From Arenibacter catalasegens (GTDB lineage: Bacteria > Bacteroidota > Bacteroidia > Flavobacteriales > Flavobacteriaceae): a stretch of DNA of 64,000 nt. The stretch is from contig NZ_PHQQ01000001.1 of the NCBI RefSeq assembly GCF_002909235.1, forward strand, positions 248,001 through 312,000. Reading direction: 5' to 3'. Below, piece by piece: positions 45,479 to 63,920 of the stretch. Under the pieces are notes generated by a model. The model was not told the DNA's origin. It made no database searches and saw only the letters and a list, made by a program, of their open reading frames with translations. A program made the position numbers and the translations under genes. Within the stretch, counting starts at the first letter, position 1. Each line of letters begins with the position of its first letter.

Positions 45479-45729
45479 ACAATTATTTTTTGAATCTTTT
45501 CTAATATTTAGTTAGGTGATGTAGGCCAGTTTATAAAAAAAGACACATTCTGTCTCCCCTGTGATGCCCCAATAGACAACATTTTCAAAACTAGGTAAAA
45601 AAGACAAAACACTCGTAGTAAACTATACAAAATGAATGCAGAGCAGACTAAATAGATTTTTGCCCCATAATGGACTATAAAGACTCGAATTATGTAGTGA
45701 GATCAATTTCGGGAAAAATCCCTAAGAGT

Positions 45730-46338
45730 TTATGCTATAACCTTGTATCCCTCTGGAAATGGACGGTAGGCATAATACTGAAGTACTTCTTCAATAGCCG
45801 CCTTCATGGCCTTATTGATAGGAAGAATACTATTGCCCATTCTAAAATCTATTTGATTAAGGTTCATGTAGTAGTCTGTGAAAATTGGCACATATAGTCC
45901 ATTTTTCATTGCCACCTTAGAATTTTCATAAAGTTCGGACTGGTTTTCCTTTATAATCTTACAGGTGGCCAAGCGAAGTTCACCCAGCTTATCTCTATTT
46001 GCACCATAACCAAATAGTCTACATATTAACCCTCGGTACTTGTAATCCCCACATCTTCCACTGTTACTGTCCAAAACGGATAGTGGTCGATATAAAGGGC
46101 AAATAGTACTTTCAGTGACCCTTAATTCCTCTAAAGTAGTTTCTGCCTTCCCACTCAAAAAAAGATTAAAAGCCCAAGGCAAAAATTCCAATGGGGAAGC
46201 ATCAATATCCGGATGGGTGCAACACCTGCCACAGCCGGCTTTACAACCCAGACCCGTTTGAGATTGAAAAGTAGCGATTTCCTGATCTAAACCAGCAAAT
46301 AACTCCTCAACCGCTTTTACCCTACGTTCTATGGACAT
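45730..46338 (-). CDS. YkgJ-type cysteine-cluster protein
   Basis: The 202-aa product (ATG at 46338, MSIERRVKAVEEL; upstream in-frame ATGs would give a Cys-rich lead unlike the family) has CKAGCGRCCTHPDIDASPLE near residue 31, ICPLYRPL, GRCGDYKYRGLICRLFGYG and ATCKI. The eight or so conserved Cys form the zinc/iron-chelating YkgJ cluster. Its function is unknown, with metal binding likely. Confidence 0.82.
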   Translation of the reverse strand: MSIERRVKAVEELFAGLDQEIATFQSQTGLGCKAGCGRCCTHPDIDASPLEFLPWAFNLFLSGKAETTLEELRVTESTICPLYRPLSVLDSNSGRCGDYKYRGLICRLFGYGANRDKLGELRLATCKIIKENQSELYENSKVAMKNGLYVPIFTDYYMNLNQIDFRMGNSILPINKAMKAAIEEVLQYYAYRPFPEGYKVIA

Positions 46339-46475
46339 TAATTTTTTTGTGCGAAGGTACACCAATAAAGGTATCCCACAACAAATATTGCCACAGTCGC
46401 AATAAGAAAATTTCATTTCTAAAGTGAATGTTAACAGCACCTTAAATAGGAACTAGGATTAAAAAACCTTAGTCG

Positions 46476-48236
46476 CTAATCCACTCTTTCCATCTCCATC
46501 CAAAAAGGAAATATATTTTTATTATCCACTGCATAAAAAGGCATAAGATTGCCGACCATTTTAGGAAAATAGACCTTCTTCATTTGAATAATATCGGTTG
46601 TCCCTTTTTTATTCTCCATTTGTCTAACTAGGGTATTGGCTTCCAAAACCATTCTCCCATTCCCCATTACCGGTTTTACAAACTTATAAGTAATATCATA
46701 ATATCCTTCTTCAATATCCACATCCCAATTGCCATAAACTTCTTCCTGATTCCATATACCCCTTTCGCCCCCAGCATCGTTCCTGTTAAGGATCACCGGA
46801 TTTTCCTTGGGCGTACCCACCATAATTCTTGGAGGATTTATAAGGTTTTCCGAATTGATCAATTCATTATATATGTTATCCAATTCTTTTTTAAGGCCCA
46901 AAGCCAATTCTTGGTTTTCTTTTATCATGTTGCGCTGTTCATAAGGATCTTTATTGAGATGGTACAACTCGAAATTTTCAATAGTGGCATTATAATCGGT
47001 ATTTCCCACCAATTTATATCCACCTTTCTGAAGGGCCATATTGTTGTATAGTTCTGGGTAACGACGGGACCAATAAAAAAACAAGGATCGATCGGCCCAA
47101 TCCACCTGCTTGCCTTTTATTAAGGGAAGTAGACTTTTACCATCAATTATCCTGTCTTTGGGCATTTCCACGCCACAGATTTCAGATAATGTAGGCAGTA
47201 CATCTAAATGGGCTGTCATGGTTTCCACATCGCTATTCCCCTTGACAAGTGCTGGGTATTTAAAATAGAAAGGAACCCGTACTCCTCCATTGTATACATC
47301 GCCCTTAAGTCCGCGCATACCACTTACGTACCTCGTCTGCTGGGGGCCATTATCGGTCATAAAGATTACTAGGGTATTTTCCGTAAGCTTCAAGTCCTTC
47401 AATTTTTTAAAGAGTTTCCCTAGATTGTCATCAATATTGTTGACCATGGCGTATACCTTTCTAGCATCTTCCTTATCCTTCTCGCTCATTTCTGAAAAAG
47501 GCCTTCCATCCTTATCGAAACCAGAAGAGGGGTCTAAGTCCTTGTATTTTTGATAATAAGAATCTGGCACCTGCAAAGGGGTATGTGGAGCATTAAAAGC
47601 CAAATAACAGAAAAAAGGGGACTCCTTATTTTTGTCTATAAAATTGATGGCTTGATCGGTAAAAATATCAGAACAATACCCGTCATAGGACTCTTGCTGG
47701 TTATTATGCCAAAGCACAGGGTCAAAATAACTTCTATCCCCCTTAAAATAAGTAGTAATATCTCCTACCTGCCCCATACCCCCTGAAAGATGGATAACAG
47801 ATTCATCAAAACCCTGATCACTGGGCCTACTAGGAAAATTATCGCCTAAATGCCATTTACCAAAAGCCCCGGTGCTATAATCTGCCTGCTTCAACATTTC
47901 AGCAATGGTTACTTCGTTGGATGCCATAATGGCGCCCCCATTATAGGTATCCCTCATACCCGTACGCAAAGAATAACGTCCTGTCATTAAACTGGACCTA
48001 GTTGGGGCGCATACAGGGGAAACATAAAAATTATTGAACCGCACACTTTCCTTTGCAAAGGCATCAATTACCGGAGTTTTTACATGAGGATTCCCTGTAA
48101 ACCCCAAATCTCCGTATCCTTGGTCGTCTGTAATTATTAGGATTACGTTGGGCCGTTGTTTTGGTTGGGCCTTTACGCCAAAGGTTAGACCTAAAATAAG
48201 GAGGAGAACAAAACGATGTGTGTACTTTATTATCAT
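46476..48236 (-). CDS. Secreted S1-family sulfatase
   Basis: This 586-aa protein has a signal peptide (to about residue 23) and the type I sulfatase fold. Asp37-Asp38 (ITDDQGYGD) bind calcium, and CAPTRSSLMTGR at Cys76 is the C-x-P-x-R site converted to formylglycine by a separate maturase. GKWHLGD, FMTDNGPQ and RGLKGDVYNGGVRVPF are further active-site blocks. It probably removes sulfate esters from marine polysaccharides. It lies 122 nt downstream of two sialidase-fold genes, an unusual neighbour set for alginate, which is not sulfated. Confidence 0.93.
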   Translation of the reverse strand: MIIKYTHRFVLLLILGLTFGVKAQPKQRPNVILIITDDQGYGDLGFTGNPHVKTPVIDAFAKESVRFNNFYVSPVCAPTRSSLMTGRYSLRTGMRDTYNGGAIMASNEVTIAEMLKQADYSTGAFGKWHLGDNFPSRPSDQGFDESVIHLSGGMGQVGDITTYFKGDRSYFDPVLWHNNQQESYDGYCSDIFTDQAINFIDKNKESPFFCYLAFNAPHTPLQVPDSYYQKYKDLDPSSGFDKDGRPFSEMSEKDKEDARKVYAMVNNIDDNLGKLFKKLKDLKLTENTLVIFMTDNGPQQTRYVSGMRGLKGDVYNGGVRVPFYFKYPALVKGNSDVETMTAHLDVLPTLSEICGVEMPKDRIIDGKSLLPLIKGKQVDWADRSLFFYWSRRYPELYNNMALQKGGYKLVGNTDYNATIENFELYHLNKDPYEQRNMIKENQELALGLKKELDNIYNELINSENLINPPRIMVGTPKENPVILNRNDAGGERGIWNQEEVYGNWDVDIEEGYYDITYKFVKPVMGNGRMVLEANTLVRQMENKKGTTDIIQMKKVYFPKMVGNLMPFYAVDNKNIFPFWMEMERVD

Positions 48237-48358
48237 ATTTTAGAATTTCAAGTTCTGATGGTTATATTATGAATCAAATTGAATAGGAAGGTAAAACATT
48301 TAATGCCCATGAACAATAAAAGTCTTCTTAGGAAACATAAGAAAAACCGTCCTGTTAA

Positions 48359-49531
48359 CTAAGGGCTACTAATCCATTCCTTTTTCATGGAAGTTAAATT
48401 AGTGACCAGCAGCCCGGTTCTTTGGACTCGGTTGCCAGCACAATAACCTAAAATCAGATTTTCAGGATCTACAAAGTACAATGCCGTATAACAGTACCAT
48501 CCTTTAGGATCTTTTTCTATATTTTTAATGTTGCCCCATGTTTTTCCCTCATCTTTGGAAATGGCTATCGATAATGGGGTTCTGTTATTCTTTATAGCAG
48601 GATCGGAACCATTATTGTTGTTCCATATCATAATCCAATCCTTAGTCCCTGGAACTTTTTCTATTGTAGCTGGGGAAAGCGGGGAGTAAATGGCACTAGG
48701 TTCTATAGGGGTCCATGTTGCCCCACGATTTTCTGAAAAAGAAAGCTGTTGCACACCACCGCTTGCACGAATGTACATCATGATACGGCCATCATGCATT
48801 TCAATTAGGCCCGGTTCTTGGGTAACAATTTCCGTTTTGTTCGGAACCACTTGACTAGACGTCCAAGTCTTTCCATTATCATCCGAATAATAGCAGAAAA
48901 GATTTCCCTTGGCAACAAAACCTTTATCAGTGTTGGGGTGTTCTGCTACAGCAAACATTAAACGACCATCTTCCAACTGAATAACCCGGTCGTTATTTAA
49001 AACGAAATATCCCTTTTTATCAGTAATACAGGACACTGGAGCACTCCAGGTCTTAGCTTCATCCGTGGATACTCTCATCATAGGCATACAATCCTCAATG
49101 CTGTTCTTTCTCAGATAGAACAAGGCTATAGAACCATCATGTAATCGTAATAAGGAAACCGACATTACATTCATTTCGCCATCATTTGGAATTACCATTT
49201 CATCTTCCTGGCTCCATGTTTCACCTCCATCTTCGGAATACCTACTGGCCAAATAGGCGGGATCATGGTCCGAACCCGTTCCTTGGGTATAATGGGTATA
49301 GACAAATAACAATTTTCCGTTATTGAGCCTTATAAAATCTCCTTCGCTGTTACGAGGGTTATCGGCCGAAGGTTGTAGACTCAAGACTGTTTTAGGCCCT
49401 AAAAAGGATGATTTATTGTTGGCACTTTCTTCTCTTTTTCCCTTACAGGAGAAGACCAGTCCTAGCAGCACAGAGAAAAGAAATAGGTTTGAAAAAAATT
49501 TAAAATAGGTTACTTGGATGTTAAAAGACAT
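48359..49531 (-). CDS. Lipoprotein of the sialidase/BNR beta-propeller fold (1)
   Basis: This 390-aa protein has a lipoprotein signal with lipobox VFSC near residue 29, and a six-bladed propeller marked by five Asp boxes: SEDGGETW, STDEAKTW, SDDNGKTW, SENRGATW and SKDEGKTW. The fold is that of sialidases, but the N-terminal FRIP motif is not seen. Enzymes of this shape in marine Bacteroidota also act on other sugars, so the substrate is open. It starts 14 nt after the second propeller gene and is probably in one operon with it and the sulfatase. Confidence 0.82.
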   Translation of the reverse strand: MSFNIQVTYFKFFSNLFLFSVLLGLVFSCKGKREESANNKSSFLGPKTVLSLQPSADNPRNSEGDFIRLNNGKLLFVYTHYTQGTGSDHDPAYLASRYSEDGGETWSQEDEMVIPNDGEMNVMSVSLLRLHDGSIALFYLRKNSIEDCMPMMRVSTDEAKTWSAPVSCITDKKGYFVLNNDRVIQLEDGRLMFAVAEHPNTDKGFVAKGNLFCYYSDDNGKTWTSSQVVPNKTEIVTQEPGLIEMHDGRIMMYIRASGGVQQLSFSENRGATWTPIEPSAIYSPLSPATIEKVPGTKDWIMIWNNNNGSDPAIKNNRTPLSIAISKDEGKTWGNIKNIEKDPKGWYCYTALYFVDPENLILGYCAGNRVQRTGLLVTNLTSMKKEWISSP

Positions 49532-49545
49532 GAATTTATTTTTTC

Positions 49546-50580
49546 TTAATTAAGTTTGGACAAAGGTATTTCTGCGAAATAAATTGAGGTTTTTTCAGTC
49601 TCGTGCGAAGAATAGTAGCTCATAAACAACGTATCATTTTCTACCACAAACCCGGGATAACTACTGTCGGAATTAGAGGGTAATTGAAGTGCTTTCTTAA
49701 AATCGCCATCCTTTGTAAAGGAAACGAGGCCAGTATATGCCCTATTTATCCTTCCCCCGCCAATAAATCGGTTCTCCCCTACACTTATAAAATCTGGGCC
49801 ACCTATGAAAAATGGTGATTCTAAAAAAGTCCATTCCTTATAGGGGGCCTTACTTTTCCCCAAATAAGCCATCCCATCTCCTTTTTCCCTTCTAACCAGC
49901 ATTAACATCTCCCCACTGGGCAAAAAACGGAAGGTGGATTCATTGGGATTGCCTTCAATTGCCAAATCGGATACCTTTTCATAATCAATACCGTTGGTCG
50001 TTTTAACTAATTTTATAATCGTCTTATTTTTATCCTCCTTATTTTCGATTCTGGAATACATCCCCCCATAACCGGTACCCTCATACCATGTTAGGCTCCA
50101 TAACCAATCGAACTTTGTTTTTAAACTGGAATCATATTTAATGGGCTGTGGTAAGGAGAACTTAGCCCCTTTCGTATTTGAAAATGCTACATGAGGTATC
50201 CCTCCCATTAAGGTCTTTCCCTTATATATAGAACCTCCCATAGTGGCCATTATACGCCCATCTGGAGTAATGGATAATTTGGGATCCCGCAAATCACAAC
50301 CCTTTAATGAAATTTTGTCTACTTCCCTCCATTTTACCCCGTCTTTTGAAGCAATAATTTTAATGACGCCGTCCTTACCATAAACGTGTTTTTCTCCAGA
50401 ACGAAAAGCACAGTAAAAGTCTCCGCTAAACTTTATTAAGGATGTAAAGGCATTATAGTTTTCATCGGAATAAATCTTGGTTACCTTAATATCTTCCAAT
50501 TGTGTTTGGCCAACTACATTTAAAGTAGATACAAGGAATAAGCACAATAATGACAGTGAAGGAACATTGGTTTTTTTCAT
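49546..50580 (-). CDS. Secreted sialidase-fold propeller protein (2)
   Basis: The 344-aa product (ATG at 50580, signal peptide SLSLLCLFLVSTLNVVGQ) has a five/six-bladed propeller with weak Asp boxes (ASKDGVKW, SNTKGAKF). The stretch YCAFRSGEKH is followed by DPKLSITPDGRIMATMGGS. It is related to exo-sialidase-like proteins but lacks clear catalytic triad marks. It heads the minus-strand set propeller-propeller-sulfatase. Function as a glycosidase is inference. Confidence 0.72.
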   Translation of the reverse strand: MKKTNVPSLSLLCLFLVSTLNVVGQTQLEDIKVTKIYSDENYNAFTSLIKFSGDFYCAFRSGEKHVYGKDGVIKIIASKDGVKWREVDKISLKGCDLRDPKLSITPDGRIMATMGGSIYKGKTLMGGIPHVAFSNTKGAKFSLPQPIKYDSSLKTKFDWLWSLTWYEGTGYGGMYSRIENKEDKNKTIIKLVKTTNGIDYEKVSDLAIEGNPNESTFRFLPSGEMLMLVRREKGDGMAYLGKSKAPYKEWTFLESPFFIGGPDFISVGENRFIGGGRINRAYTGLVSFTKDGDFKKALQLPSNSDSSYPGFVVENDTLFMSYYSSHETEKTSIYFAEIPLSKLN

Positions 50581-50613
50581 TTTTATTGGTTTGATTTTGG
50601 TTATTGACCCCAA

Positions 50614-51009
50614 CTACACGATGTTGGATCAAGGTTTTATCCGATATTATGAAAAATAATCTCCTTTTTTTTTCACATTTTTCCGAAAAACACATTCTAT
50701 AGACGTAGACCATTTAAAGATCGTGCCTAGTGTGAACCTCCTAAAATATAAAATATATGCGTTAAAAAAAAGAATAGACCATCCCAGGCCTTCATATGCG
50801 CAAAAGGAAATTTAGAAGCCCCCTGTTAGGCTTTGCTTAAGGATAGTTGTAATTTATTCAACTAAAAGTTTAAAGTCATAGAAACAAGGAGTTCCCGACA
50901 TAATGGACAAGTTTGTTCCCACAGGCAGAATCCAAGAAACCCTCAGCAGAAATGAGGTAGTTCTAAGGCTTAGTTGCAACTGTTCATTAATGCTGTAGTT
51001 TTAATAGTC
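50614..51009. other. Gap between propeller gene and RraA-like gene
   Basis: About 400 bp without a supported frame, terminator or operator copy. I see nothing clear in it. Confidence 0.4.
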
Positions 51010-51726
51010 TTAATTTTTATTTGTCTTCCAACCTTCAAATTCTTCTGCAATTTGTTTATCCACCAAAGGATAAAGTCCAATAATAGATCGGCCATTTTTT
51101 ACTTTTTCCATGACAAATTCCTCAAACAATCCCATTTGCAAGCATTCATCGGCCACCTCATCGGCAATTCCGGCCGGAATGACCATAACCCCGTCATCAT
51201 CCCCCACCAAAATATCTCCCGGAAAGACGGCAACATCACCGCATCCAATAGGTTCGTTAATGGCGATTGCCTGGTGCAAGGTTAGATTGGTCGGTGCCGA
51301 AGGTCTATTGTGATAGGACGGGAAATCCAGTTCAGCAATTTCTGCCGAGTCCCGGAAACCGCCATCGGTTACAATTCCCGATACGCCTCTGACCATTAGT
51401 CGCGTAACCAATATGGAACCTGCTGAGGCCGCCCTGGCATCTTTTCTACTATCTATAACCAAAATAGCGCCTTTGGGGCAATCTTCAACGGCCACCCGCT
51501 GCAAATGTTTTGGATCTTTGAATACTTCAATGGTATTTAAATCTTCACGGGCCGGAATATAGCGAAGGGTATAGGCCTCTCCGACCATAGTAGGCTTGCC
51601 TAATTTTAAAGGTTTTATGTCCTGAATAAATTGTTTTTTCAATCCCTTTTTAAAAAGACAGGTAGCAATGGTGGCGGTACTGACTTTGCTTAATTTCTCT
51701 TTCGTGGAATTTCGTTTATTATCCAT
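51010..51726 (-). CDS. RraA-like protein (HMG/CHA aldolase fold)
   Basis: This 238-aa protein has the RraA / 4-hydroxy-4-methyl-2-oxoglutarate aldolase fold: GEAYTLRYIPAREDL, DCPKGAILVIDSRKDARAASAG, and VTDGGFRDSAEIAELDFPSYH with the Arg-Asp pair that binds substrate and metal. C-terminally VFPGDILVGDDDGVMVIPAGIADEV is characteristic. Such proteins cleave 2-oxo-4-hydroxy acids. It lies 25 nt after the TIM-barrel gene and may act in sugar-acid breakdown. Confidence 0.85.
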   Translation of the reverse strand: MDNKRNSTKEKLSKVSTATIATCLFKKGLKKQFIQDIKPLKLGKPTMVGEAYTLRYIPAREDLNTIEVFKDPKHLQRVAVEDCPKGAILVIDSRKDARAASAGSILVTRLMVRGVSGIVTDGGFRDSAEIAELDFPSYHNRPSAPTNLTLHQAIAINEPIGCGDVAVFPGDILVGDDDGVMVIPAGIADEVADECLQMGLFEEFVMEKVKNGRSIIGLYPLVDKQIAEEFEGWKTNKN

Positions 51727-51751
51727 ATTGTTATGCTTTGGTTATCATAAT

Positions 51752-52720
51752 TTATTCGGCTCTTTGCCAAGCTTCTTTAAGGAATTTTAGATCCTTTTTC
51801 ATTTGGGAAAAGACAACATTCTTATCTATGGTTAATTTTGTTGCACCATGTTCGGCACCACCTAGGTCATACTCCAGGTGTAGGGATATAGGTACGTTGA
51901 TTTTATATTTTTTAAGCAAAGCAAAGTAACGGTCAAAATCTACCATGCCCTCCCCTAGCGGCGTATTGATCGGTTTCCATTGTCCGTTGACAGAGCCCCA
52001 TTTAAAATCTTTGATGACGATGGATTTAATAAATGGTCTGATCAGTCGCAGCCCTAGTTCCCAGGAACTGCCCCCTTCCACTACGGCATGTCTTATATCG
52101 TATTGACAACCCATGTGTACGTTTTTGGCAGCCTCAAGAATAGGCGGTAAATCCCAAATAGGCGCCCCTACATGGTTACCTGCGTGATTTTGATAACAGC
52201 CGATAAGGCTCAGTTTCTTATTAAACTCCTCTAAATTTTTAAACTGCTGGCCATAGATGATCTGACTTTCTGAGATCTCCCTATCCTCTGGATAGGTTAA
52301 CCAACCTGTGCGATAATGGGAAAGTCCCAACTTACTGGCTGTTTCCAATACGGACCTTTGTTCCATGTTTTCAACATCCAAAACATTAGTAGTCATCATC
52401 CTTGGGCTTAGACCATATTTTTTCATGGCCTCGACCGCCTTAGGCAAATCTTCATATACGCGATCTGGCAAAACATGCCCTGCGGGTCTTACTGTCAAAT
52501 CCAATCCGTCAAAACCCATATCCGCCGCCGCTTCGGACATATCATTATAGTCTAGAAATTGCAGATGCTTTGAAAACAAATTTACCTCCAAGGAATTCTT
52601 AAAAGGCGTAATAGAACTGAACATTGCTTTATCAAATGCCATCAGCGGTATGGCCGCTCCCGCCATTGTTGCAAGTTTAACAAAATTCCTTCTATCATAA
52701 TTTAAAATATTCTTCTTCAT
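51752..52720 (-). CDS. Exported sugar phosphate isomerase/epimerase-like TIM barrel
   Basis: This 322-aa protein begins with a Tat-type signal (DRRNFVKLATMAGAAIPL) and continues as an AP-endonuclease-2-like TIM barrel: GFDGLDLTVRPAGHV, HAGNHVG, GCQYDIRHAVVEGG, KDFKWGS, LGEGMVDFDRYFALLKKY and HLEYDLGGAEHG. His, Asp and Glu residues at strand ends would bind a metal. It is divergent from the PL6 gene; the operator at 52796-52818 lies in the shared promoter region, so the repressor may control both. Confidence 0.82.
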   Translation of the reverse strand: MKKNILNYDRRNFVKLATMAGAAIPLMAFDKAMFSSITPFKNSLEVNLFSKHLQFLDYNDMSEAAADMGFDGLDLTVRPAGHVLPDRVYEDLPKAVEAMKKYGLSPRMMTTNVLDVENMEQRSVLETASKLGLSHYRTGWLTYPEDREISESQIIYGQQFKNLEEFNKKLSLIGCYQNHAGNHVGAPIWDLPPILEAAKNVHMGCQYDIRHAVVEGGSSWELGLRLIRPFIKSIVIKDFKWGSVNGQWKPINTPLGEGMVDFDRYFALLKKYKINVPISLHLEYDLGGAEHGATKLTIDKNVVFSQMKKDLKFLKEAWQRAE

Positions 52721-52818: not shown

Positions 52819-52857
52819 ATTTATAATTGGAAGTTGTTCCTGAAAAATCTATTAATT

Positions 52858-55167
52858 ATGAGGAGAATAATAACCTTACTGTACTTTTTATTTATTCTTA
52901 ACGCCTGTGCAGACAAGGCTAATCTGAATACTATAATAATAAGCACTCCTCAAGAACTGGAAGTAGCTATAAAAAATGCAGGGGCTGGTGACAACATTGT
53001 GTTGGCCAATGGTATATGGAAAGATGTTCGAATTAAATTTATAGGTGAAGGCACGGAAGAGAAGCCAATAACCATTAAAGCTGAAACAGCTGGAAAAGTT
53101 TTTATTGAAGGAGTGTCTGATTTAAAATTTGGAGGGAAGTATTTAGTGGTCGATGGACTGCATTTTAGAAATGGTTATTCGCCAAGTGAAGCAGTATTGG
53201 AATTTAGGGTGGACGAAAAAACTATTGGAAATAACTGTACCGTTACCAATTGCGTTATAGAGGATTTTAATAAAATGCATCGCGATGATACGGATCTCTG
53301 GGTTCAATTCTGGGGAAGACATAATACGCTAAGCAACAGTTACATTGCCGGAAAAACAAATCGCGGACCAACTATTAGGGTGGACTTAGAGGGCAATGAG
53401 AGTATAAATAATTACCATCAAATCGTTAATAACCATTTTGGACCAAGACCTCCCAAAGGTGGTGCCAGTGGGGAGACCATTCAAATTGGCAACAGCTATT
53501 CCTCAATGTCCCCGAGTTATACAAAGGTTGCCAATAATTTATTTGAAGAGTGCAACGGCGAGGTTGAAATTATTTCCAGTAAAACCAACTTCAACGAGTT
53601 CAGAAATAATGTCTTCTACAAAAGCCAAGGTTCTTTGGTAACAAGACACGGAAATTATTGCACCATAGATGGCAATTACTTTATTGGCGATGGTAAAAAT
53701 GAAAACATAGGCGGAATCAGAATTATCAATACGGGACATTGGGTGACCAACAATTATTTCTACAATATAAAAGGAAAGAATTTTAGAAGCGCCTTGGCCG
53801 TGATGAACGGAATTCCAAAATCACCCCTAAACAGATACAATCAAGTTACAGATGTAGTGGTCGCTTACAATACCTACATAAATTGCGATTCCCCATGGCA
53901 ATTCGGAGTGGGTCAAAATCTAAGTCAGAAAGACGTTTTGCCTCCCTCGGAAATTCGCTCAGCAAGACCCATAAGGACATTAATTGCCAACAACGTAATT
54001 TATAATGAAAAAGGTGATGCTTCACCAATTATTGAACATGATAAGGCTGATGGTGTAACCTTTAAAAACAACCTCATCAATAATCAAGGTATGGATTTTA
54101 AAGCCTATGACGGATTGGAGGCTACAAATTTTGAAATTAAGGAAATAGGAGAAAATATTTTTATCCCTTCATCTAATTTACAAATTGGACCTTATCGAGG
54201 GTTTGAATTTGAAAAAATTTCGAAAGATTTAGTTGGAAATTCCAGGGGTGACAACAATTCCATTGGAGCATTCACTAATACGGATTTTAAAGACCCGAAA
54301 ATACTGGATAGGTCCAAATACGGTCCAAGCTGGTATTCAGCTGAAACTGAAGCTCGAGAACCTAAAACGGTAGTTGTTGCCAAAACAGAAAACCTTCAAT
54401 CAAAAATAAATGAAGCGGTTAATGGGGATATCATTTCTCTGGAAGCAGGAAATTATGAAATCCAGAAATCCTTGATAATTAATAAAAAGTTGATCATTCA
54501 ATCCTCTGATAAGTCAAAAGTTGTGCTAAATTATTCTGGAGGAGAAAATTCACCACTTTTTGAACTGCAACCTAAAGGGTTTTTAAATCTGAAAAATGTC
54601 ACCTTAAAAGGAAATAATTCCCAATATGCATTCGCCAGTTTAAAGAAAAATATGTTTACACATTTTGGGTTAACGGTTGCCGATTGTGACATCAGTGATT
54701 TCAACTATGTCTTAAAGGTCTATAAAGAGTCCTTTGCAGAACATATCACCTTTGAAAATACTACGATTTTAAACTGCGAAAATGGTTTGGAACTATCAGA
54801 AGAAACTAATGATCTAGGAGATTATAACACTGAATACCTGACTATAAATAATTGCCGGTTCTCCAATGTAAAAAGCAATGTGATCGATTACTATCGTGGG
54901 GGTTATGACGAATCTACCATTGGTGGGAATCTGTTGGTCACCAATAGCACCTTCACAAATTGTGGGGCACAAGATAAAAGTGGAATTCTGATTAACTCCC
55001 ACGGCATTGTAAATGTCGATATTTCTAATAACACCTTTAAAAACAATCCGGTAAAACTGGTGGCTTTACTTTGGGGAGCGAAAAACAATTCACATTCGGA
55101 CAATCAGGTCAACAATTCCGGAGAAATCAGGGTTGAAGAGAATTTAGAAATGAAATTATTGTATTAA
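52858..55167 (+). CDS. PL6 alginate lyase, two-domain lipoprotein
   Basis: The 769-aa product (ATG at 52858; the TTG 24 nt upstream is unlikely) is a lipoprotein with lipobox LNAC. Residues of about 20-470 form a PL6 (chondroitinase-B-type) parallel beta helix. The catalytic pair is Lys242 (EIISSKTNF) and Arg263 (VTRHG), 21 residues apart as in AlyGC (Lys220/Arg241) and chondroitinase B (Lys250/Arg271). Residues of about 490-769 form a second beta helix, as in dimeric PL6 enzymes. It would cut alginate, perhaps G-rich, at the cell surface. It is first in the locus and under operator 1. Confidence 0.9.
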   Translation: MRRIITLLYFLFILNACADKANLNTIIISTPQELEVAIKNAGAGDNIVLANGIWKDVRIKFIGEGTEEKPITIKAETAGKVFIEGVSDLKFGGKYLVVDGLHFRNGYSPSEAVLEFRVDEKTIGNNCTVTNCVIEDFNKMHRDDTDLWVQFWGRHNTLSNSYIAGKTNRGPTIRVDLEGNESINNYHQIVNNHFGPRPPKGGASGETIQIGNSYSSMSPSYTKVANNLFEECNGEVEIISSKTNFNEFRNNVFYKSQGSLVTRHGNYCTIDGNYFIGDGKNENIGGIRIINTGHWVTNNYFYNIKGKNFRSALAVMNGIPKSPLNRYNQVTDVVVAYNTYINCDSPWQFGVGQNLSQKDVLPPSEIRSARPIRTLIANNVIYNEKGDASPIIEHDKADGVTFKNNLINNQGMDFKAYDGLEATNFEIKEIGENIFIPSSNLQIGPYRGFEFEKISKDLVGNSRGDNNSIGAFTNTDFKDPKILDRSKYGPSWYSAETEAREPKTVVVAKTENLQSKINEAVNGDIISLEAGNYEIQKSLIINKKLIIQSSDKSKVVLNYSGGENSPLFELQPKGFLNLKNVTLKGNNSQYAFASLKKNMFTHFGLTVADCDISDFNYVLKVYKESFAEHITFENTTILNCENGLELSEETNDLGDYNTEYLTINNCRFSNVKSNVIDYYRGGYDESTIGGNLLVTNSTFTNCGAQDKSGILINSHGIVNVDISNNTFKNNPVKLVALLWGAKNNSHSDNQVNNSGEIRVEENLEMKLLY

Positions 55168-55470: not shown

Positions 55471-56241
55471 ATGAAAAACAATAACAAATTAGCTGGCAAA
55501 AATGTTCTCATAACTGCTGGTGCTCAAGGAATTGGAGAATCAATCACCAAACACTTTATCAACAGTGGAGCTAATGTAGCCATCCACTATTTTTCCAGTG
55601 CGGATACAGCCAACCAATTAGTGGAATATGCAACCAGCAAAGGGCAAAAAGCGGTTGCTATATCTGGTGACTTAACAAACGAAGCCGATGCAGATGCATT
55701 GGTCGTAAAAACAATAGAAGCATTTGGTGGACTAGACATACTGATCAACAACGCAGGTTCACTTGTTGCGCGTAAAATGCTTAGCGAAATGGAAGCTGAG
55801 TTCTGGCACAAGGTAATGGATATTAACCTTACATCCATGATGTTTGTAACGCGAGCCGCAGCTCCTTACCTAGCAAAAAATGACAACAGTAGTATAGTTA
55901 ATCTGGCATCACTTGCTGGACGTAAAGGTGGTCACCCAGGGTCATTAGCTTACTCTACCAGTAAAGGTGCTATTCTAACACTAACACGAGCGCTATCGGC
56001 AGAATTAGGGCCTCAAGGAACTCGAGTTAACGCGGTCGCGCCAGGACTTATTCTGGGTACTTCATTTCACAACACCCATACATCCAAAGAATCAGCAGCT
56101 GCAACAACAGCAGGCATTCCAATCCAACGAGCTGGTAATGTAGCTGACGTAGCACGAGCAGTTTTGTATCTGGCGTCCGAATACGATGGCTTTATTACTG
56201 GTGCAACACTAGACATTAATGGTGGTGTTTACAATATGTAG
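55471..56241 (+). CDS. Short-chain dehydrogenase/reductase, possibly acquired
   Basis: This 256-aa SDR has the NAD(P) loop TAGAQGIGE (about 14-22), NNAG, catalytic Ser in SIVNLASLAG and YSTSKGA (Tyr-x-x-x-Lys), and the C-terminal DINGG. In alginate loci an SDR reduces DEH to KDG, so that role is possible; fucose or other sugar dehydrogenase activity is equally open given the RbsD/FucU neighbour. Codon use looks richer in GC than the neighbours, and downstream genes are proteobacterial in style. A decayed different SDR lies at 60090-60268. Confidence 0.85.
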   Translation: MKNNNKLAGKNVLITAGAQGIGESITKHFINSGANVAIHYFSSADTANQLVEYATSKGQKAVAISGDLTNEADADALVVKTIEAFGGLDILINNAGSLVARKMLSEMEAEFWHKVMDINLTSMMFVTRAAAPYLAKNDNSSIVNLASLAGRKGGHPGSLAYSTSKGAILTLTRALSAELGPQGTRVNAVAPGLILGTSFHNTHTSKESAAATTAGIPIQRAGNVADVARAVLYLASEYDGFITGATLDINGGVYNM

Positions 56242-56283
56242 TTCCCTATTGAATCAAATATAATTGATTGTTATAAAAAAGAA

Positions 56284-56459
56284 AACACCAGTGTTACGTT
56301 AAAGTTGAAATGGCGTATTAGGCATCGCGGATTTTGTGGCAGATCTAGGCAAAAAATCATTGCATAGCTGTAGCTACGGAATTATTTATTAACGACGATA
56401 TGCCGCAAAAGTCACATTGGATTATACGACGATTTTGGCTTAACTTAACACTAGGTGTT
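56284..56459. repeat. Long imperfect palindrome (MITE- or REP-like)
   Basis: The left end AACACCAGTGTTACGTTAA and the right end TTAACTTAACACTAGGTGTT are inverted copies with few mismatches, and each end is itself a small palindrome. Inner parts also pair, with mismatches, towards a centre near AGCTGTAGCT (56367). The 176-bp element could fold into one long hairpin. The sequence style recalls repeats I have seen in marine gammaproteobacteria, which needs checking. Confidence 0.6.
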
Positions 56460-56505
56460 ATTTAGCTCCTTCTGTTTTTTACTTACTTATTTTAAGGATA
56501 ATTAT

Positions 56506-56940
56506 ATGCTAAAAACTCCGGTAATACACCCAACAATTATGGAGGCGCTTGCGCGTTCAGGTCATTTTGCACAAGTTGTCATTGCAGACGGAAATTTGCC
56601 GGTCGGTGCTATGAAAGGCCCTAATTCGACAACCGTACACCTCAACTTTCGTCCAGGACTATTAGATGCTCTCACAGTACTTGAAGGCATACTGGAAGTC
56701 TGCCCAGTTCAAGGTGCAATCGTCATGGAAAAGCCTGCTGAAGCAAATGCAGAAATACACGATGCTTATAAAAAATTACTGGGTGAAGTATCGTGGATCG
56801 AGATGGAACGATGGGCTTTCTACGACAAAATCAGAGAACCTGCCACCACATTAATTATTCAAACCGGTGAACAGCGCCGATTCGCTAATTTGATACTAAC
56901 TGTCGGTGTCGTAAAAATGGCAGAAGAAAGCGGATTTTAA
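56506..56940 (+). CDS. RbsD/FucU family sugar mutarotase-like protein
   Basis: This 144-aa protein begins MLKTPVIHPTIMEALARSGHFAQVVIADGNLPVG; the His of SGHF and Asp of ADGNLP are the family's active-site region. It ends with the RFANLILTVGVVKM segment. RbsD and FucU interconvert sugar anomers. The ATG at 56506 is chosen over an upstream one at 56455 because the family motif follows at once, and because AAGGA lies 8 nt before it, a Shine-Dalgarno that Bacteroidota genes normally lack. That suggests transfer from a proteobacterium. Confidence 0.85.
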   Translation: MLKTPVIHPTIMEALARSGHFAQVVIADGNLPVGAMKGPNSTTVHLNFRPGLLDALTVLEGILEVCPVQGAIVMEKPAEANAEIHDAYKKLLGEVSWIEMERWAFYDKIREPATTLIIQTGEQRRFANLILTVGVVKMAEESGF

Positions 56941-57558: not shown

Positions 57559-59613
57559 ATGAACTTAAAAATATTTAAGTCAATTTTTGTCCATAAGCTA
57601 TTTATAATAAGTGTCATTTTGTTATTTCATAGCTGTGCTGAAAACAAAAAACAAAAACCTACTGACAAAACTGAAGATGTCGCGATAGGTCGTAATGCAA
57701 ACGACATCATACCATTTTTTCAACATTGGAATTTAATCCTAGGTGATGGTTCTAATGTAGGCCAGGCAACTGACTATGAGAACAAAAATTACTTTTACAC
57801 TGCAACTGATGAAAATGGTGATTGGGTCGTATTTAAAGCACCAAATGCAGGAAACACCCATGGTTCTTCGAACAATACAAGAACCGAACTGGCACAATTA
57901 AAGAAGTGGTCACCAATGACTAAGGCTAAAATGAATGCCACCCTTAAGGTAATGAATGTGTCGACTACGGGCGATGCTCGCGTTGCTTCGACGTATTCAG
58001 TAGTGGTTGGCCAGATTCACAGTGCAGATGGGCACGAGAACGAACCGCTTAAAATATTTTATAAAAAATTTCCGGGCCATAATAAAGGTTCTGTCTTTTG
58101 GAATTATGAAATCAATACAGCAGGTGATGATAATGCTGGAAGGTGGGATTATTCCACTCCTATATGGGGCTATGACTTTTCTGTTGTTGGTACTGATGAA
58201 AACACTTATCCGCCAGAACCAGAAGATGGTATTGCTCTAGGTGAAGCGTTCAGTTATGAAGTAGAGATTAAGGATGGCATGATGCATCTAACATTCACTA
58301 GTGACGGGCATGAGACCAAAACATTTACTAAAAATCTTATTTCGTCTGAATTTGCAAAACGTTCTGAGATGCCAGAGCAGGTCAAGAAACTATTCGTCCC
58401 TATAGGTCAGGATGGCCTCGAGCGAAAAGAAGCGTATACCGGTGAAGGCCTCTTTTTTAAATTGGGTACGTACAACCAAACGAATGGAAAAGACCCTAAG
58501 GTAAATAAGGTTTGGTGTTCTGGTGCCGAAACCCATGGCGGTGATATTCAAAAACAATATGCCGATGGCAATTACGCCGAGGTTTGGTTTAAATCAGCGA
58601 ATATTACCATTAGTAATGATGCAATATCCAATGCAGGATATTTCCAAGCGAATGATGGCTTAAGTACGAAAACAGTTTATCCAAATGAGGTGATTCCTTT
58701 TATGGATAAATTTAAAATATTGATGGGGGACGGAACGGAGGTAAAAGATATCACTGCGTTCGAAAACAAAGATTTTTTCTATACTGTAATTGATGGTACA
58801 AGGCGTTGGGTAGTCTATAAAACACCTAATTCTGGTGTCACTTCAGAAAACTCCAGCAATACAAGGACAGAGCTACACGAAAAAAGAGAATGGAAGCCTG
58901 AGGAAGGAGGTAAGCTAACAGGCACCTGTAAGGTTATGCAAGTGTCTATTTCTGGCGACGCCAGAGTTGCAGCCTCTTACGCAACAGTAGTTGGACAAAT
59001 TCATAGTGGTGAAGGACATAAAAATGAACCTCTAAAAATATTTTATAAGAAATTTCCTGGTCACACTAAGGGTTCCGTCTTTTGGAATTATGAAATCAAT
59101 ACAGCAGGTGATGATAATGCTGGAAGGTGGGAGTTATCAACCGCTGTCTGGGGGAATGATATGTCTGTAATTGGAATAAGTAAAAATGACTATCCCGCTG
59201 AGCCAAAGAATGGAATAGAATTGGGTGAAGAATTCAGCTATGAGGTAAATGTATATAAAGGTATCATGTATCTCACCTTCAAAAGTGATAATCACGAAAC
59301 AAGAACATTTACTAAAAATCTAATTTCCTCTGAATATGTGAAAAAATCAGACCAGCCAGAACAAGTAAGGAAACTATTCGTGCCAATAGGACAAGATGGG
59401 ACAGAACGCGCCACCGCCTATAGTGGAGAGTTAAATTTTTTCAAACAAGGCGCTTATAACCAAACCAATGGAAAAAGTCCTGAAACAAACATGGTTTGGT
59501 TTGCGGGTGCAGACACCTATGGAGGTGATATCGCCAAACAATATGAAAATGGCTGTTATACGGAAGTATGGTTTAGGGAAGCAACAATAGGTCAGGGTAC
59601 ACCACCAAAATAA
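57559..59613 (+). CDS. Tandem double PL7 alginate lyase, lipoprotein
   Basis: This 684-aa protein has a lipoprotein signal (lipobox FHSC) and two full PL7 (alginate lyase 2) modules of about 328 residues. Module 1: Arg108 (NTRTEL), Gln152-Ile-His154, Tyr305 (GTYNQ). Module 2: Arg436 (NTRTEL), Gln480-Ile-His482, Tyr633 (GAYNQ). These are the family's substrate Arg, neutralising Gln/His and catalytic Tyr, with equal spacing in both, so both look active. The modules share an identical 56-bp stretch (58093-58148 and 59077-59132). It would be a surface enzyme and is controlled by operator 2. Confidence 0.93.
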   Translation: MNLKIFKSIFVHKLFIISVILLFHSCAENKKQKPTDKTEDVAIGRNANDIIPFFQHWNLILGDGSNVGQATDYENKNYFYTATDENGDWVVFKAPNAGNTHGSSNNTRTELAQLKKWSPMTKAKMNATLKVMNVSTTGDARVASTYSVVVGQIHSADGHENEPLKIFYKKFPGHNKGSVFWNYEINTAGDDNAGRWDYSTPIWGYDFSVVGTDENTYPPEPEDGIALGEAFSYEVEIKDGMMHLTFTSDGHETKTFTKNLISSEFAKRSEMPEQVKKLFVPIGQDGLERKEAYTGEGLFFKLGTYNQTNGKDPKVNKVWCSGAETHGGDIQKQYADGNYAEVWFKSANITISNDAISNAGYFQANDGLSTKTVYPNEVIPFMDKFKILMGDGTEVKDITAFENKDFFYTVIDGTRRWVVYKTPNSGVTSENSSNTRTELHEKREWKPEEGGKLTGTCKVMQVSISGDARVAASYATVVGQIHSGEGHKNEPLKIFYKKFPGHTKGSVFWNYEINTAGDDNAGRWELSTAVWGNDMSVIGISKNDYPAEPKNGIELGEEFSYEVNVYKGIMYLTFKSDNHETRTFTKNLISSEYVKKSDQPEQVRKLFVPIGQDGTERATAYSGELNFFKQGAYNQTNGKSPETNMVWFAGADTYGGDIAKQYENGCYTEVWFREATIGQGTPPK

Positions 59614-59684: not shown

Positions 59685-60062
59685 ATGAAACGATTTAGTG
59701 AAAAGTACATCATCTCAAAAGAAATGAAATGGGAAGAACTTGGAGGAGGAGTATCAAGAAAGTTCTTAGGTTACGATAACCAAATCATGATGGTAAAAGT
59801 GAAATTTGAGAAAGGAGCATTAGGTGCCCCACATCAACATTTTCACACACAAGCTACCTATTGTGTTGCAGGTAAATTTGAATTTGAAATTAATGGAGAA
59901 AAGAAAATTGTAGAAGCAGGAGATGGAGTTTATATTGAACCTAATCTATTGCATAGTGCAGTTTGTTTGGAAGAAGGGATACTAATTGACACATTTAGTC
60001 CTGTAAGAGAAGATTTCTTAAGCGGTGGAGAGGTATCTTATTTTGGAGATAAACAGTCTTAA
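59685..60062 (+). CDS. kdgF: KdgF-type cupin, uronate linearisation
   Basis: This 125-aa single-domain cupin catalyses ring opening of the 4,5-unsaturated uronates released by lyases, giving DEH for reduction to KDG. It has the cupin metal motif PHQHFHTQATYCVAGKFEFEI (HxH-x-Q) and a second strand block with GDGVYIEPNLLHSAVC. It has no signal peptide. It lies 72 nt after the PL7 gene, in the order usual for alginate loci, where an SDR reductase often follows; here that position holds a decayed SDR. Confidence 0.92.
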   Translation: MKRFSEKYIISKEMKWEELGGGVSRKFLGYDNQIMMVKVKFEKGALGAPHQHFHTQATYCVAGKFEFEINGEKKIVEAGDGVYIEPNLLHSAVCLEEGILIDTFSPVREDFLSGGEVSYFGDKQS

Positions 60063-60737: not shown

Positions 60738-63700
60738 ATGAATTTAAGAAAGAAACTCATTTTAGGAGCGTTATTGCTCATTAATGTTGCACTGTTTGCC
60801 CAAGAAGGCTTTATGCTTTCTGGAACGGTAACGGACGCCGCAAACGTCCCAGTGCCAGGAGTGAATGTAATTATTGCCAACACTACTACAGGAACGGCAA
60901 CAGACTTTGATGGAAATTACCAAATTGAGGTAAAAAACGGGGATGTACTACAGTTCTCGTCCTTGGGCTTTGTTTCCCAATCGATATCAATTACAAATCA
61001 AAAACAATTGAACATCATCATGCAAGAAGATGCAAGTCAACTTGATGAGGTTGTTGTAGTTGGATATGGTACAATAAAGAAATCACATCTTACTGGTGCG
61101 GTAGCAAAAATAGGAGGTGATGAAGTTGCTGCTGTTCAAGTGGCCCGTGTGGATGATGCCCTCGCAGGCAAGTTATCCGGGGTAAGGATACAAAATCAAA
61201 GTGGAGAACCTGGTGCGGATCCAAAGATCCAAATAAGGGCAGCTTCCTCTGTTTCAGGTGACTCAGGGCCACTCATTGTTGTGGATGGTTATCCGATTTC
61301 AGGTAATTTAGCCACCGTTAACCCCAACGATATAGAAAGTTTAGAGGTATTAAAAGATGCTGCTTCAGCCGCTATTTATGGTTCTTTGGGTGCAAATGGT
61401 GTTATTTTGGTAACCACCAAAAAAGGAAAGTCAGGAAAAGTTAATTTTAGTTACAATTCATATACAAGCACCTCAAGCAAGTATGTGAAGGACATTGAAA
61501 TGCTTAAGACTGCGGGCGAATGGGCCAGTGAATTACAGACTAGTGCATATGATCTTTCCGAAACCGACCCAGGTTTATTGGCTTACAGACTAGATGCATT
61601 CACTAATGCGCCTGATGTAGTAAGTATAGAAGATTGGCTTTTCAAAAATGGTAGTTCAACTAGCCATGATTTCAGCGTAAGCGGAGGGTCTGAAAATATA
61701 AAAGCTTTTGCTTCTCTTGGTTATTTGAACACTGAAGGTATAGTAAAAGGGCAAGGTTATGAAAGATATAACGGACGTATGAACGTAGATGCCAACTTGG
61801 GTTCTAAATTAAAGGCCGGATTGAGTATGAATGGTTATTATGGCAAACAAGATATTGTTCCTTGGGAGATGAGAGATCTTTTAAGATCATATAGCATTAG
61901 TCCTATATACCATACGCAAGCCTCAATAGATTTCGTTCAACAATTGGATCGTAACAGACAGGCATTAGCAGATTCCGGATTTACAGGAAATAACATAGGT
62001 AGATCATTTGACCAAGACTATAGAGGTATAGGTCTGGATCCTACAAGTATCTATGATTTGCAACCTGGTGATGTAGCTCACGATTGGCAATACGGTAGAA
62101 ATCAAAATGGTATTGGAGGAACAGGAGATGCAGGTGTAGCGGCGAAGTTTGATAATTCACAAAGATGGAAAAAGACATATTTTGGGAACGTGAGTTCTTA
62201 TTTACAATATGAAATCATAGAAGGATTAAATTTAAAAACCATTTTTGGAGCAGATCTTCAAGATACCCAAACCTACGAATATCATGGAATATTATCAGAT
62301 GGTCAACAACGTTCCAATCAAACAGAGTTGGATATATCCAATATAAAAAAATCTACTGTTTTAAGTACGACTACTTTAAATTATGCAAAAGTTTTTGCTG
62401 ATAAGCACGATATATCTGCGGTGGCTGGAATGGAATTTGTAAATACATATTATAAGGGAATTGTAAACAATGGATCAAACGTGGCATTTGGTCTGCCATT
62501 AAATTATGATTTTTTTGACCCTGCAGATGTGATTACCAACGAGATAGATGAGACTCAGTCAAGAAATGGTTTTTTTGGAAGAATTGCTTATGCGTTTGAT
62601 GATCGTTATCTACTATCGGCATCCATTAGAAGAGATGGTGATTCACGATTTGGAGCCAATGAAAAATACGCGGTATTCCCAGCACTATCCTTAGGCTGGA
62701 ATATTCATAATGAATCCTTTTTTGGAGATGCTGATGGGTTTAGCCTATTTAAACTTAGGTTTAGTACTGGATCTTTAGGAACGGCTTCTTTCTTAGGGTC
62801 ATACAACTCATTAAGTATTTTGGGAACCTCACCGACCGCTTTCGGGACAGGATTTCTAATTCCGGAGGATATAGCAAACCCAGATTTAACTTGGCAAACC
62901 AATAAAGAGACAAACTATGGTGTTGATACAGGGTTTATAAATAACCGTTTCAGATTGAGTGTAGATTATTATACGTCTGATGTAAATGATATGTTGATCA
63001 ATCAAAGTGTTTCTGAAGTTCTTGGGACACCTGCTATAAAACTTAATCGCGGTGATGTGACCAGTTCCGGTTTGGAGTTTGAACTTAATGCAAAAATAAT
63101 TGCCGATCAAAACTTCTCTTGGAATGTTAACGCCAATTTATCAACTGCTAAATCAGAAATTACCAATCTAGGTGAATTGACCGAACTGCCCAGGCAAATT
63201 TACGGTGGACCGAGTGGAAGAGGTCCTGAGTTTAGAAACTATGTAGGAGGTGAAATTGGTGAAATGTGGGGATATGAAGTAACTGGTGAGGTTGAAACGA
63301 TACATATGTCGGATCCATCCAGAGGCGTTGGATTTGGCAGCGGAGAATATTATGTCGTAGACCAAAACGGTGACGGTGAAATTACCTATGAAGAAGATTA
63401 TGTAAAGTTAGGATCCGCAACCCCGGATTTCTATTGGGGACTTTCAAGTTCTATGAGCATCAAGAATTTTGATTTTTCGTTCCAGTTCCAAGGATCTCAA
63501 GGAGCAGAACTTTACAATATAGACCCCATTTACTGGAAATCACAATTTGGCGGTAGATTAAAATCCAGTTTTGATGCCAATAATGACGGTATTGCCGATG
63601 CCAGTGGCAAGTTTTATCAGGAGACCAGAAATGCACATGGTTCGGGGATTCAAGATGCTTCCTTTACCGCTTTAAGAAACATAACTTTAGGTTATACCCT

Positions 63701-63920
63701 TGATTCTGATTTAACGGATAAAATTGGTATAGGTTCTATGAGGGTATATGTTGCAGCTACCAATTTGTTGTACATAATGGCAGATAATTATACCTCATTT
63801 AACCCTGAAGGTGTAGAGATCGAAAATACAGGTTATGCTGGTCCAACAACTTACGGATACCAAGAAGGTGCGAGCCCGCTTGTAAGAAGTTTTACTTTGG
63901 GTGTAAATGTTAATTTTTAA
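60738..63920 (+). CDS. SusC/RagA-type TonB-dependent outer-membrane transporter
   Basis: This 1060-aa protein imports oligosaccharides, here probably from alginate, across the outer membrane with its SusD partner. It has a signal peptide (cut after ALFAQ), a carboxypeptidase-regulatory-like domain (about 25-95: SGTVTDAANVPVPGVNVIIANTTTGTATD...), the SusC TonB-box region LDEVVVVGYGTIKKSHLTGAV, a plug domain (to about 235) and a 22-strand-type barrel ending in SFTLGVNVNF. The susD start follows 10 nt later. Confidence 0.95.
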   Translation: MNLRKKLILGALLLINVALFAQEGFMLSGTVTDAANVPVPGVNVIIANTTTGTATDFDGNYQIEVKNGDVLQFSSLGFVSQSISITNQKQLNIIMQEDASQLDEVVVVGYGTIKKSHLTGAVAKIGGDEVAAVQVARVDDALAGKLSGVRIQNQSGEPGADPKIQIRAASSVSGDSGPLIVVDGYPISGNLATVNPNDIESLEVLKDAASAAIYGSLGANGVILVTTKKGKSGKVNFSYNSYTSTSSKYVKDIEMLKTAGEWASELQTSAYDLSETDPGLLAYRLDAFTNAPDVVSIEDWLFKNGSSTSHDFSVSGGSENIKAFASLGYLNTEGIVKGQGYERYNGRMNVDANLGSKLKAGLSMNGYYGKQDIVPWEMRDLLRSYSISPIYHTQASIDFVQQLDRNRQALADSGFTGNNIGRSFDQDYRGIGLDPTSIYDLQPGDVAHDWQYGRNQNGIGGTGDAGVAAKFDNSQRWKKTYFGNVSSYLQYEIIEGLNLKTIFGADLQDTQTYEYHGILSDGQQRSNQTELDISNIKKSTVLSTTTLNYAKVFADKHDISAVAGMEFVNTYYKGIVNNGSNVAFGLPLNYDFFDPADVITNEIDETQSRNGFFGRIAYAFDDRYLLSASIRRDGDSRFGANEKYAVFPALSLGWNIHNESFFGDADGFSLFKLRFSTGSLGTASFLGSYNSLSILGTSPTAFGTGFLIPEDIANPDLTWQTNKETNYGVDTGFINNRFRLSVDYYTSDVNDMLINQSVSEVLGTPAIKLNRGDVTSSGLEFELNAKIIADQNFSWNVNANLSTAKSEITNLGELTELPRQIYGGPSGRGPEFRNYVGGEIGEMWGYEVTGEVETIHMSDPSRGVGFGSGEYYVVDQNGDGEITYEEDYVKLGSATPDFYWGLSSSMSIKNFDFSFQFQGSQGAELYNIDPIYWKSQFGGRLKSSFDANNDGIADASGKFYQETRNAHGSGIQDASFTALRNITLGYTLDSDLTDKIGIGSMRVYVAATNLLYIMADNYTSFNPEGVEIENTGYAGPTTYGYQEGASPLVRSFTLGVNVNF

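Follow-up and report, generated by a model that had tools for sequence, protein, structure and literature searches.

The alginate lyase AlyA5 of Zobellia galactanivorans (PDB 4BE3) is the nearest PL7 enzyme of solved structure to the protein analysed here, and according to the available text of PMC7268478 it carries three added loops that, together with Trp313, shut one end of its groove. In the same source, replacement of the equivalent Trp by Ala in VxAly7D is reported to have added endo activity; the rule linking this Trp wall to mode of action rests on two enzymes, AlyA5 and VxAly7D. The accessible part of PMC8073546 places AlyA5 in the periplasm, where it degrades imported material, a placement that fits an exo-enzyme role, and that of PMC10811132 names Glu392 of VaAly2 as the hallmark Glu of PL7 subfamily 5. 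AlyA5 is described as preferring polyG (PMC7268478, in the part available) and Alys1, 71.8% identical to it, as preferring polyM (PMC8065536, likewise), and preference for M or G is therefore unreadable from lineage. PMC10811132 also calls tandem domains ubiquitous, and the double-PL7 proteins identifiable in the accessible open-licence literature all come from Vibrio.

The window, a stretch of 64,000 nt from the 5.45-Mb assembly of Arenibacter catalasegens, holds a gene encoding two PL7 modules in a single chain. Its parts are given below, S1 and S2 denoting the two sets of single-module genes with which the N-terminal module (N-module) and the C-terminal module (C-module), respectively, group in our tree.

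57559..59613, + strand: double-PL7 gene, 684 aa, ATG start (open reading frame list, Pfam match)
57559..57636, + strand: signal peptide with lipobox-like LLFHSC, Cys26 the probable lipid anchor (read by eye from the sequence)
57694..58596, + strand: N-module, aa 46-346, PL7 of S1 type (Pfam, module alignment, tree)
57880..57882, + strand: Arg108 (TRTEL) of the N-module, Arg in 80/80 N-modules
58012..58020, + strand: Gln152-Ile-His154 (QIH) of the N-module, 80/80
58471..58473, + strand: Tyr305 (YNQ) of the N-module, 80/80
58513..58515, + strand: Trp319, N-module counterpart of the AlyA5 exo-wall Trp313, Trp in 80/80 N-modules
58597..58680, + strand: linker, aa 347-374, its first part (aa 347-366) matching the tail with which S1-type single genes end
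58681..59610, + strand: C-module, aa 375-684, PL7 of S2/AlyA5 type (Pfam, alignment, tree, structure comparison)
58864..58866, + strand: Arg436 of the C-module, 81/81
58996..59004, + strand: Gln480-Ile-His482 (QIH) of the C-module, 81/81
59455..59457, + strand: Tyr633 of the C-module, 81/81
59497..59499, + strand: Trp647, C-module counterpart of AlyA5 Trp313, 80/81, the exception (L085) stopping at a contig edge

The Pfam profile Alginate_lyase2 (PF08787.18) matched the whole protein in two stretches (E 2.4e-95; 319.1 bits against a curated cut-off of 29.7), and in the genome search it returned 175 and 156.1 bits within one open frame, each above the cut-off. No further PF08787 match was found elsewhere in the 5.45-Mb assembly, making the double protein the entire PF08787 complement of the genome, and an NCBIfam search of the protein assigned no family. 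The N- and C-modules have the same residue at 189 of 310 aligned positions (61%), and the DNA shows an internal repeat with a period of 984 nt that is 72-73% identical over 300 and 139 nt. An earlier note on this DNA had claimed two complete PL7 modules in one lipoprotein, with Arg, Gln/His and Tyr at 108/152-154/305 and 436/480-482/633. The module alignment locates the residues exactly there, and the two PF08787 stretches, together with the identity of the named residues in all compared modules (80 N, 81 C), bear out two complete modules in one lipoprotein-like chain. Its figure of 328 residues per module is correct as the repeat period of module plus linker, whereas the catalytic module itself spans about 305 aa and the rest is linker; the QIH-to-QIH distance is 328 aa in 87 of 88 double open reading frames (327 in one), a count that includes six re-fetched copies. 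Cys26 is present in at least 90% of 38 aligned double proteins, and the protein is probably lipoprotein-like, with this residue as its lipid anchor.

The catalytic motifs are strictly kept in both modules: within R.EL, Q(I/V)H and YNQ, the residues R, E, Q, I, H, Y, N and Q are invariant in 80/80 N-modules and 81/81 C-modules. The Glu of NYEIN (E184 and E512), invariant in 38 sequences, is the putative counterpart of VaAly2 Glu392 by a presumed match in numbering. AlyA5, found as the closest solved structure at 471 bits, shares 60% identity with the N-module and 66% with the C-module, and the predicted C-module compares with 4BE3 at a Z score of 49.2 and an rmsd of 1.2 over 311 residues; this comparison hardly probed the N-module, as a single domain fills the match list. 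The predicted full-length model (one of five that differ among themselves, with mean pLDDT 66-83) confirms the fold of the C-module, says little on the relative placing of the two modules at its pTM of 0.62, and has pLDDT below 50 in the loop at aa 99-105, before Arg108. When scored with module profiles, AlyA5-like modules reached at least 453 bits (the broken gene of L152 apart) versus 18-57 bits for other PL7 proteins of L003-L017 and L026. By these sequence comparisons both modules are members of PL7 subfamily 5, the AlyA5 group, in a tree that holds no other subfamily.

Both modules also carry, at the level of sequence, the exolytic-type features of the Trp wall and loop 3, and because of their kinship to AlyA5 and the conserved counterpart of Trp313 we predict both to be exolytic. 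That one module is catalytic and the other merely binds alginate has a precedent in domain 1 of Vibrio splendidus 12B01 AlyA, reported inactive in the accessible parts of PMC9781882 and PMC6165035, although the latter suspects a preparation artefact. We regard such an arrangement as very improbable here, given that no exception to Arg, Glu, Gln, His or Tyr occurs among 80 N-modules and 81 C-modules, and that the wall Trp is retained in all 80 of the former and in 80 of the latter. The gain in processivity that the earlier note had imagined for two linked sites found no backing: both modules resemble AlyA5-type exo-lyases, and nothing was found for a hand-over of the chain between sites.

A variation on the wall occurs among the single-module relatives. 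In 11 of the 24 S2 singles (for example L043:363-1460) a natural deletion of 8 residues has taken away the exo-wall Trp together with part of loop 3, and a wall-less S2 gene is present in 7 of the 11 loci that carry both S2 and S1 genes. These wall-less singles may be endo-acting or mixed-mode enzymes, and they constitute a natural test of the Trp-wall rule.

We then placed the modules in a tree of 92 rows, comprising 22 double proteins (of 82), 47 single-module relatives and AlyA5, without an outgroup root and with bootstrap values not fully settled. The single genes are a non-random set, hand-picked among the matches listed (40 stretches, five of them aimed at double genes) and their flanks. 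Dropped before counting were L001, L002, L113, L114, L116 and L117, whose genes duplicate other loci, the identical entries L038_N, L044_N, L044_C and L044_S363, and also L152, a broken S1 gene (at L152:3110-4228, in genome G091, an in-frame TAA interrupts this S1-type single gene). N-modules form one clade (99/91) that joins 23 single genes, the S1 set, at 100/100, and C-modules form one clade (100/94) that joins 24 single genes and AlyA5, the S2 set, also at 100/100. Forcing N- and C-modules into one clade lowered lnL by 92.8 (p-AU 0.0016). Because N groups with S1, C groups with S2 and a joint clade is rejected, the S1/S2 paralogue split is, on this tree, older than the double protein. The 61% identity of the two copies at a fixed 984-nt period is what one PL7 gene doubled within itself, with copies that later diverged, would also leave behind, but such an internal tandem duplication can scarcely be maintained when each module is nearer to a different single-gene family (100/100 on both sides) and the clade it predicts is rejected; a recent internal duplication is ruled out on present sampling by the same p-AU of 0.0016. 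Within the sampling of the tree, the double arrangement appears to have been made, or undone, once.

The junction between the modules retains the outline of two separate genes. In the S1 singles of the tree, an ND pair aligns with N365-D366 in 23/23, 19 of which end exactly there while 4 extend three residues further, and most S1 stop codons in the genome search fall at the ND position too. Beyond the joint, seven residues lead to the mature S2 start (YP..VIPFMD in most). By alignment, the linker is the inherited C-terminal tail of an S1 enzyme, and we dropped the idea of a fusion-specific rigid joint because single-gene S1 relatives have the same tail. Mean column identity over 81 sequences is 0.84 in the linker, compared with 0.88 and 0.89 in the two modules. 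Most likely, the gene arose when two older separate genes were fused, S1 in front of S2. On this tree without an outgroup root, an old double gene may instead have undergone fission into S1 and S2 singles; because fission would require the gain of a signal peptide, a fusion in which the second signal peptide was lost is the simpler account.

If the gene arose by fusion, it did not do so in the simplest manner. The 11 fetched loci that contain both single genes, in every case on one strand, all have S2 upstream of S1, whereas the fused gene has the S1-type part first; merely losing a stop codon between genes placed as they now are therefore cannot give the fusion, and rearrangement or duplication must have intervened. 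An NRAMP-like gene separates S2 from S1 in 10 of these 11 loci, the two being adjacent in L126, and in genomes G388, G184 and G345 they lie on different contigs, which are uninformative for order. Distances among N-modules correlate with those among C-modules over 80 double proteins (r 0.66; 0/999 permutations as high), and both modules have been inherited together since joining, with L111 as a possible exception. In L111 the C-module is basal to all other C-modules and the N-module is nested in the tree, and its two modules are more alike (66% identity) than those of any other of the 80 double proteins; exchange of a module or gene conversion may have taken place there. The fused gene (20 genomes) and the S1-type single (33 genomes) share 1 genome where 6.5 are expected among 102 with PF08787 (P 0.002), in a test that was chosen post hoc, counts related genomes as independent, and recognises S1-type singles by tail match, not all of them being in the tree.

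The earlier note had taken the double layout for unusual and had suggested looking for other double-PL7 proteins; many were found, at sequence level, and that view is not supported. A scan of 84,980 species genomes with the double protein as query yielded 402 confirmed relatives; the best-scoring 80 of the 402 were retained, and all of them are double-module open reading frames, a figure to be read with the fact that ranking by a double-protein query favours doubles. They come from Arenibacter, Kordia, Eudoraea, Winogradskyella, Flagellimonas, Psychroserpens and other Flavobacteriaceae, and also from Saprospiraceae and Chitinophagales bins. With the module junction as query, the fused form was found in 20 of 397 sampled genomes of the host family, host included, at 21 places, one of which is frame-broken in the N-module (G353, L163). 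In the phylum sample the junction was matched over 68 or 69 of 69 residues in 4 of 395 genomes, of which three also belong to the family sample and one has a largely missing N-module; in G544 (L162) just the last part of the N-module is in frame. Of two sampled relatives within the genus Arenibacter, one carries the fused gene and the other lacks any PF08787 match.

Whether the two sites do the same work can be approached through the 14 positions that are fixed differently (at least 85%) between the S1 and S2 lineages. Those near the catalytic motifs in sequence are His101/Ser429, Asn105/Ser433, Asp157/Glu485, just after QIH, and Leu302/Gln630, near YNQ; at the last of these AlyA5 has Leu, the N-type residue. 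A difference in subsites between the modules is plausible because of these 14 positions and the nearness of several to catalytic motifs. They would also suit a division of labour, akin to the split specificity suggested in the earlier note, with M-ends taken by one module and G-ends by the other, which would keep degradation from halting at block borders; Vibrio tandem PL7 enzymes are described as pairing M- and G-preferring domains (PMC9781882 and PMC11671496, in the parts available). We consider this possible if on the doubtful side, since QIH is present in both modules, AlyA5 itself has Leu at Leu302/Gln630, and the reported polyG preference of AlyA5 and polyM preference of Alys1 within S2 make lineage no predictor. 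Alys1 was separately considered as a marker of an M-preferring S1 type and rejected, its 71.8% identity to AlyA5 fitting S2 (70-96%) and lying outside S1 (61-64%).

Two equivalent exo-sites on one anchor could instead serve the same function and simply raise dosage, in keeping with catalytic residues and a wall Trp that are alike in both modules and with the about equal conservation of the modules (0.88 and 0.89, as above). This is rather unlikely in view of the 14 differently fixed positions and of paralogues that have long been separate and are kept as two genes in the 11 fetched loci. An unlikely but more elaborate picture is that of a widespread two-headed exo-lyase whose long-diverged subfamily-5 paralogues have complementary end preferences and a fixed spacing, replace two lipoproteins and clear alternating ends while bound, the preferences being, for example, for M-ended versus G-ended chains or for polymer ends versus short oligomers. 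If it were true, a genome with a single PL7 gene could clear alternating chain ends without leaving the substrate.

The surroundings of the double gene within the window comprise the following.

52834..55167, + strand: PL6-type lyase (Chondroitinas_B), the sole PF14592 match in the genome, in the same locus
55471..56241, + strand: SDR oxidoreductase (Pfam match, neighbour comparison)
56455..56940, + strand: RbsD/FucU-family protein (Pfam match), upstream of the double gene
59685..60062, + strand: small cupin (Cupin_2 match), probable KdgF, named from context
60738..63920, + strand: SusC-like TonB-dependent transporter (read from sequence)

Beyond the window (L159) follow SusD, a GntR-type regulator, an MFS transporter, an SDR, a PFK-like kinase, a KDPG aldolase and an NRAMP-family protein. 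The KDPG aldolase has an NF005499 match above cut-off, and SusD is named from sequence, its NCBIfam matches being weak and below cut-off. Because the lyases adjoin SusC/SusD and genes of monouronate metabolism, this is, by gene content, an alginate utilisation locus. In 62 of 80 loci the double gene has, on its downstream side, a cupin at least 40% identical to that of the window; more than 3.5 kb of downstream sequence is present in 69 of the 80. No two-domain PL17 was recognised in the genome by PF05426 and PF07940 profile searches; PF05426 has one match, on another contig, that coincides with none of four PF07940 matches.

Other features of the neighbourhood deserve mention. A PfkB-type KDG kinase is expected in an alginate locus. 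The kinase to the right of the window (L159:7173-8396, contig G000:C1), between SDR and KDPG aldolase, is of the PfkA family, with NF041103 (PPi-PFK) as its best NCBIfam match at 336 bits, below the 550 cut-off, and the seven PfkB matches of the genome all lie on other contigs. In L126 (G129) the SDR and FucU neighbours are 94% identical to their counterparts at 55471-56940 of the window, and where the window has the fused gene there are two adjacent singles (S2, S1), 68% identical to the window protein, which looks like an exchange of the PL7 part within an otherwise shared locus. On the minus strand of the window, 44648-52720 encodes a sulfatase-like protein (by eye), a BNR-repeat protein, a protein without Pfam match, an RraA-like protein and a TIM-barrel protein. 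RraA and TIM-barrel homologues occur upstream of the double gene in 28/80 and 22/80 loci, and they lie on the opposite strand in fused loci among those listed of L033-L112.

Taken as a whole, we think it reasonably probable that the gene encodes a membrane-anchored, two-headed exo-alginate lyase, most likely derived from fusion of single S1 and S2 subfamily-5 genes. An S1-type gene, retained to its natural last residues, would have been joined once to an S2 (AlyA5)-type gene minus its signal peptide. In a groove that the Trp wall closes, each module would take up an alginate chain or oligomer by its non-reducing end and release unsaturated mono-uronate, which KdgF, SDRs, the kinase and KDPG aldolase would pass to central metabolism. 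Once fused, the two exo-sites would always be made in a 1:1 ratio and sit together at the cell envelope, and there is probably some difference between them in the end sugar or oligomer length that they prefer. Relatives that keep the same two paralogues as separate genes provide a natural experiment on why lyase modules fuse, and for alginate saccharification there would be practical interest in having two exo-sites on one polypeptide. The N-module also points to a subfamily-5 lineage, the S1 type, for which no characterised enzyme was found in the literature searched.

Compared with known systems, the protein is most like AlyA5, with which it shares the catalytic residues, Trp313 and a nearly gapless alignment through the added loops, but AlyA5 is a single module with its own signal peptide whereas two modules share one chain here. 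Alys1 of Tamlana sp. s12 is likewise described as an exolytic subfamily-5 enzyme that needs Q, H and Y for activity (PMC8065536, available part); it has one module, and its S2-like placement is taken solely from the reported 71.8% identity to AlyA5. Two PL7 modules per polypeptide are reported, in the accessible text, for Vibrio AlyC8, Aly35, VsAly7A, AlyA-OU02 and Algb, with both modules active in AlyC8, Aly35 and AlyA-OU02. However, the modules of AlyC8 are given as subfamilies 6 and 3 with 22.4% identity (PMC9781882), and the double protein, with both modules AlyA5-like and 61% identical, does not show this layout of different PL7 subfamilies and low mutual identity; Aly35, too, differs in being reported as endolytic (PMC11671496). 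The enzyme of PMC13235733, set aside as unlike the double-PL7 protein, is described there, in the part available, as GH5-PL31. In the accessible open-licence literature we found neither a double protein of two subfamily-5 exo-type modules nor a description of a fused form of the two-gene S1/S2 pair. PL7(4) of Flagellimonas alginate loci is named in species that carry the double gene here, and we presume it to be this gene, although the accessible text of PMC12323373 does not mention two modules; we found the double gene in F. algicola, F. flava, F. hymeniacidonis, F. allohymeniacidonis and F. spongiicola (L064, L082, L078, L081 and L093, respectively). Zobellia SF5_4 and SF5_5 are described, in the available part of PMC8073546, as subfamily-5 paralogues 65-67.5% identical, both with lipoprotein signals, but encoded by separate genes, and SF5_5 is, judging from identity, probably of the S1 type. 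The layout is thus known in kind from tandem PL7 enzymes, frequent in this lineage and shared by many marine Bacteroidota.
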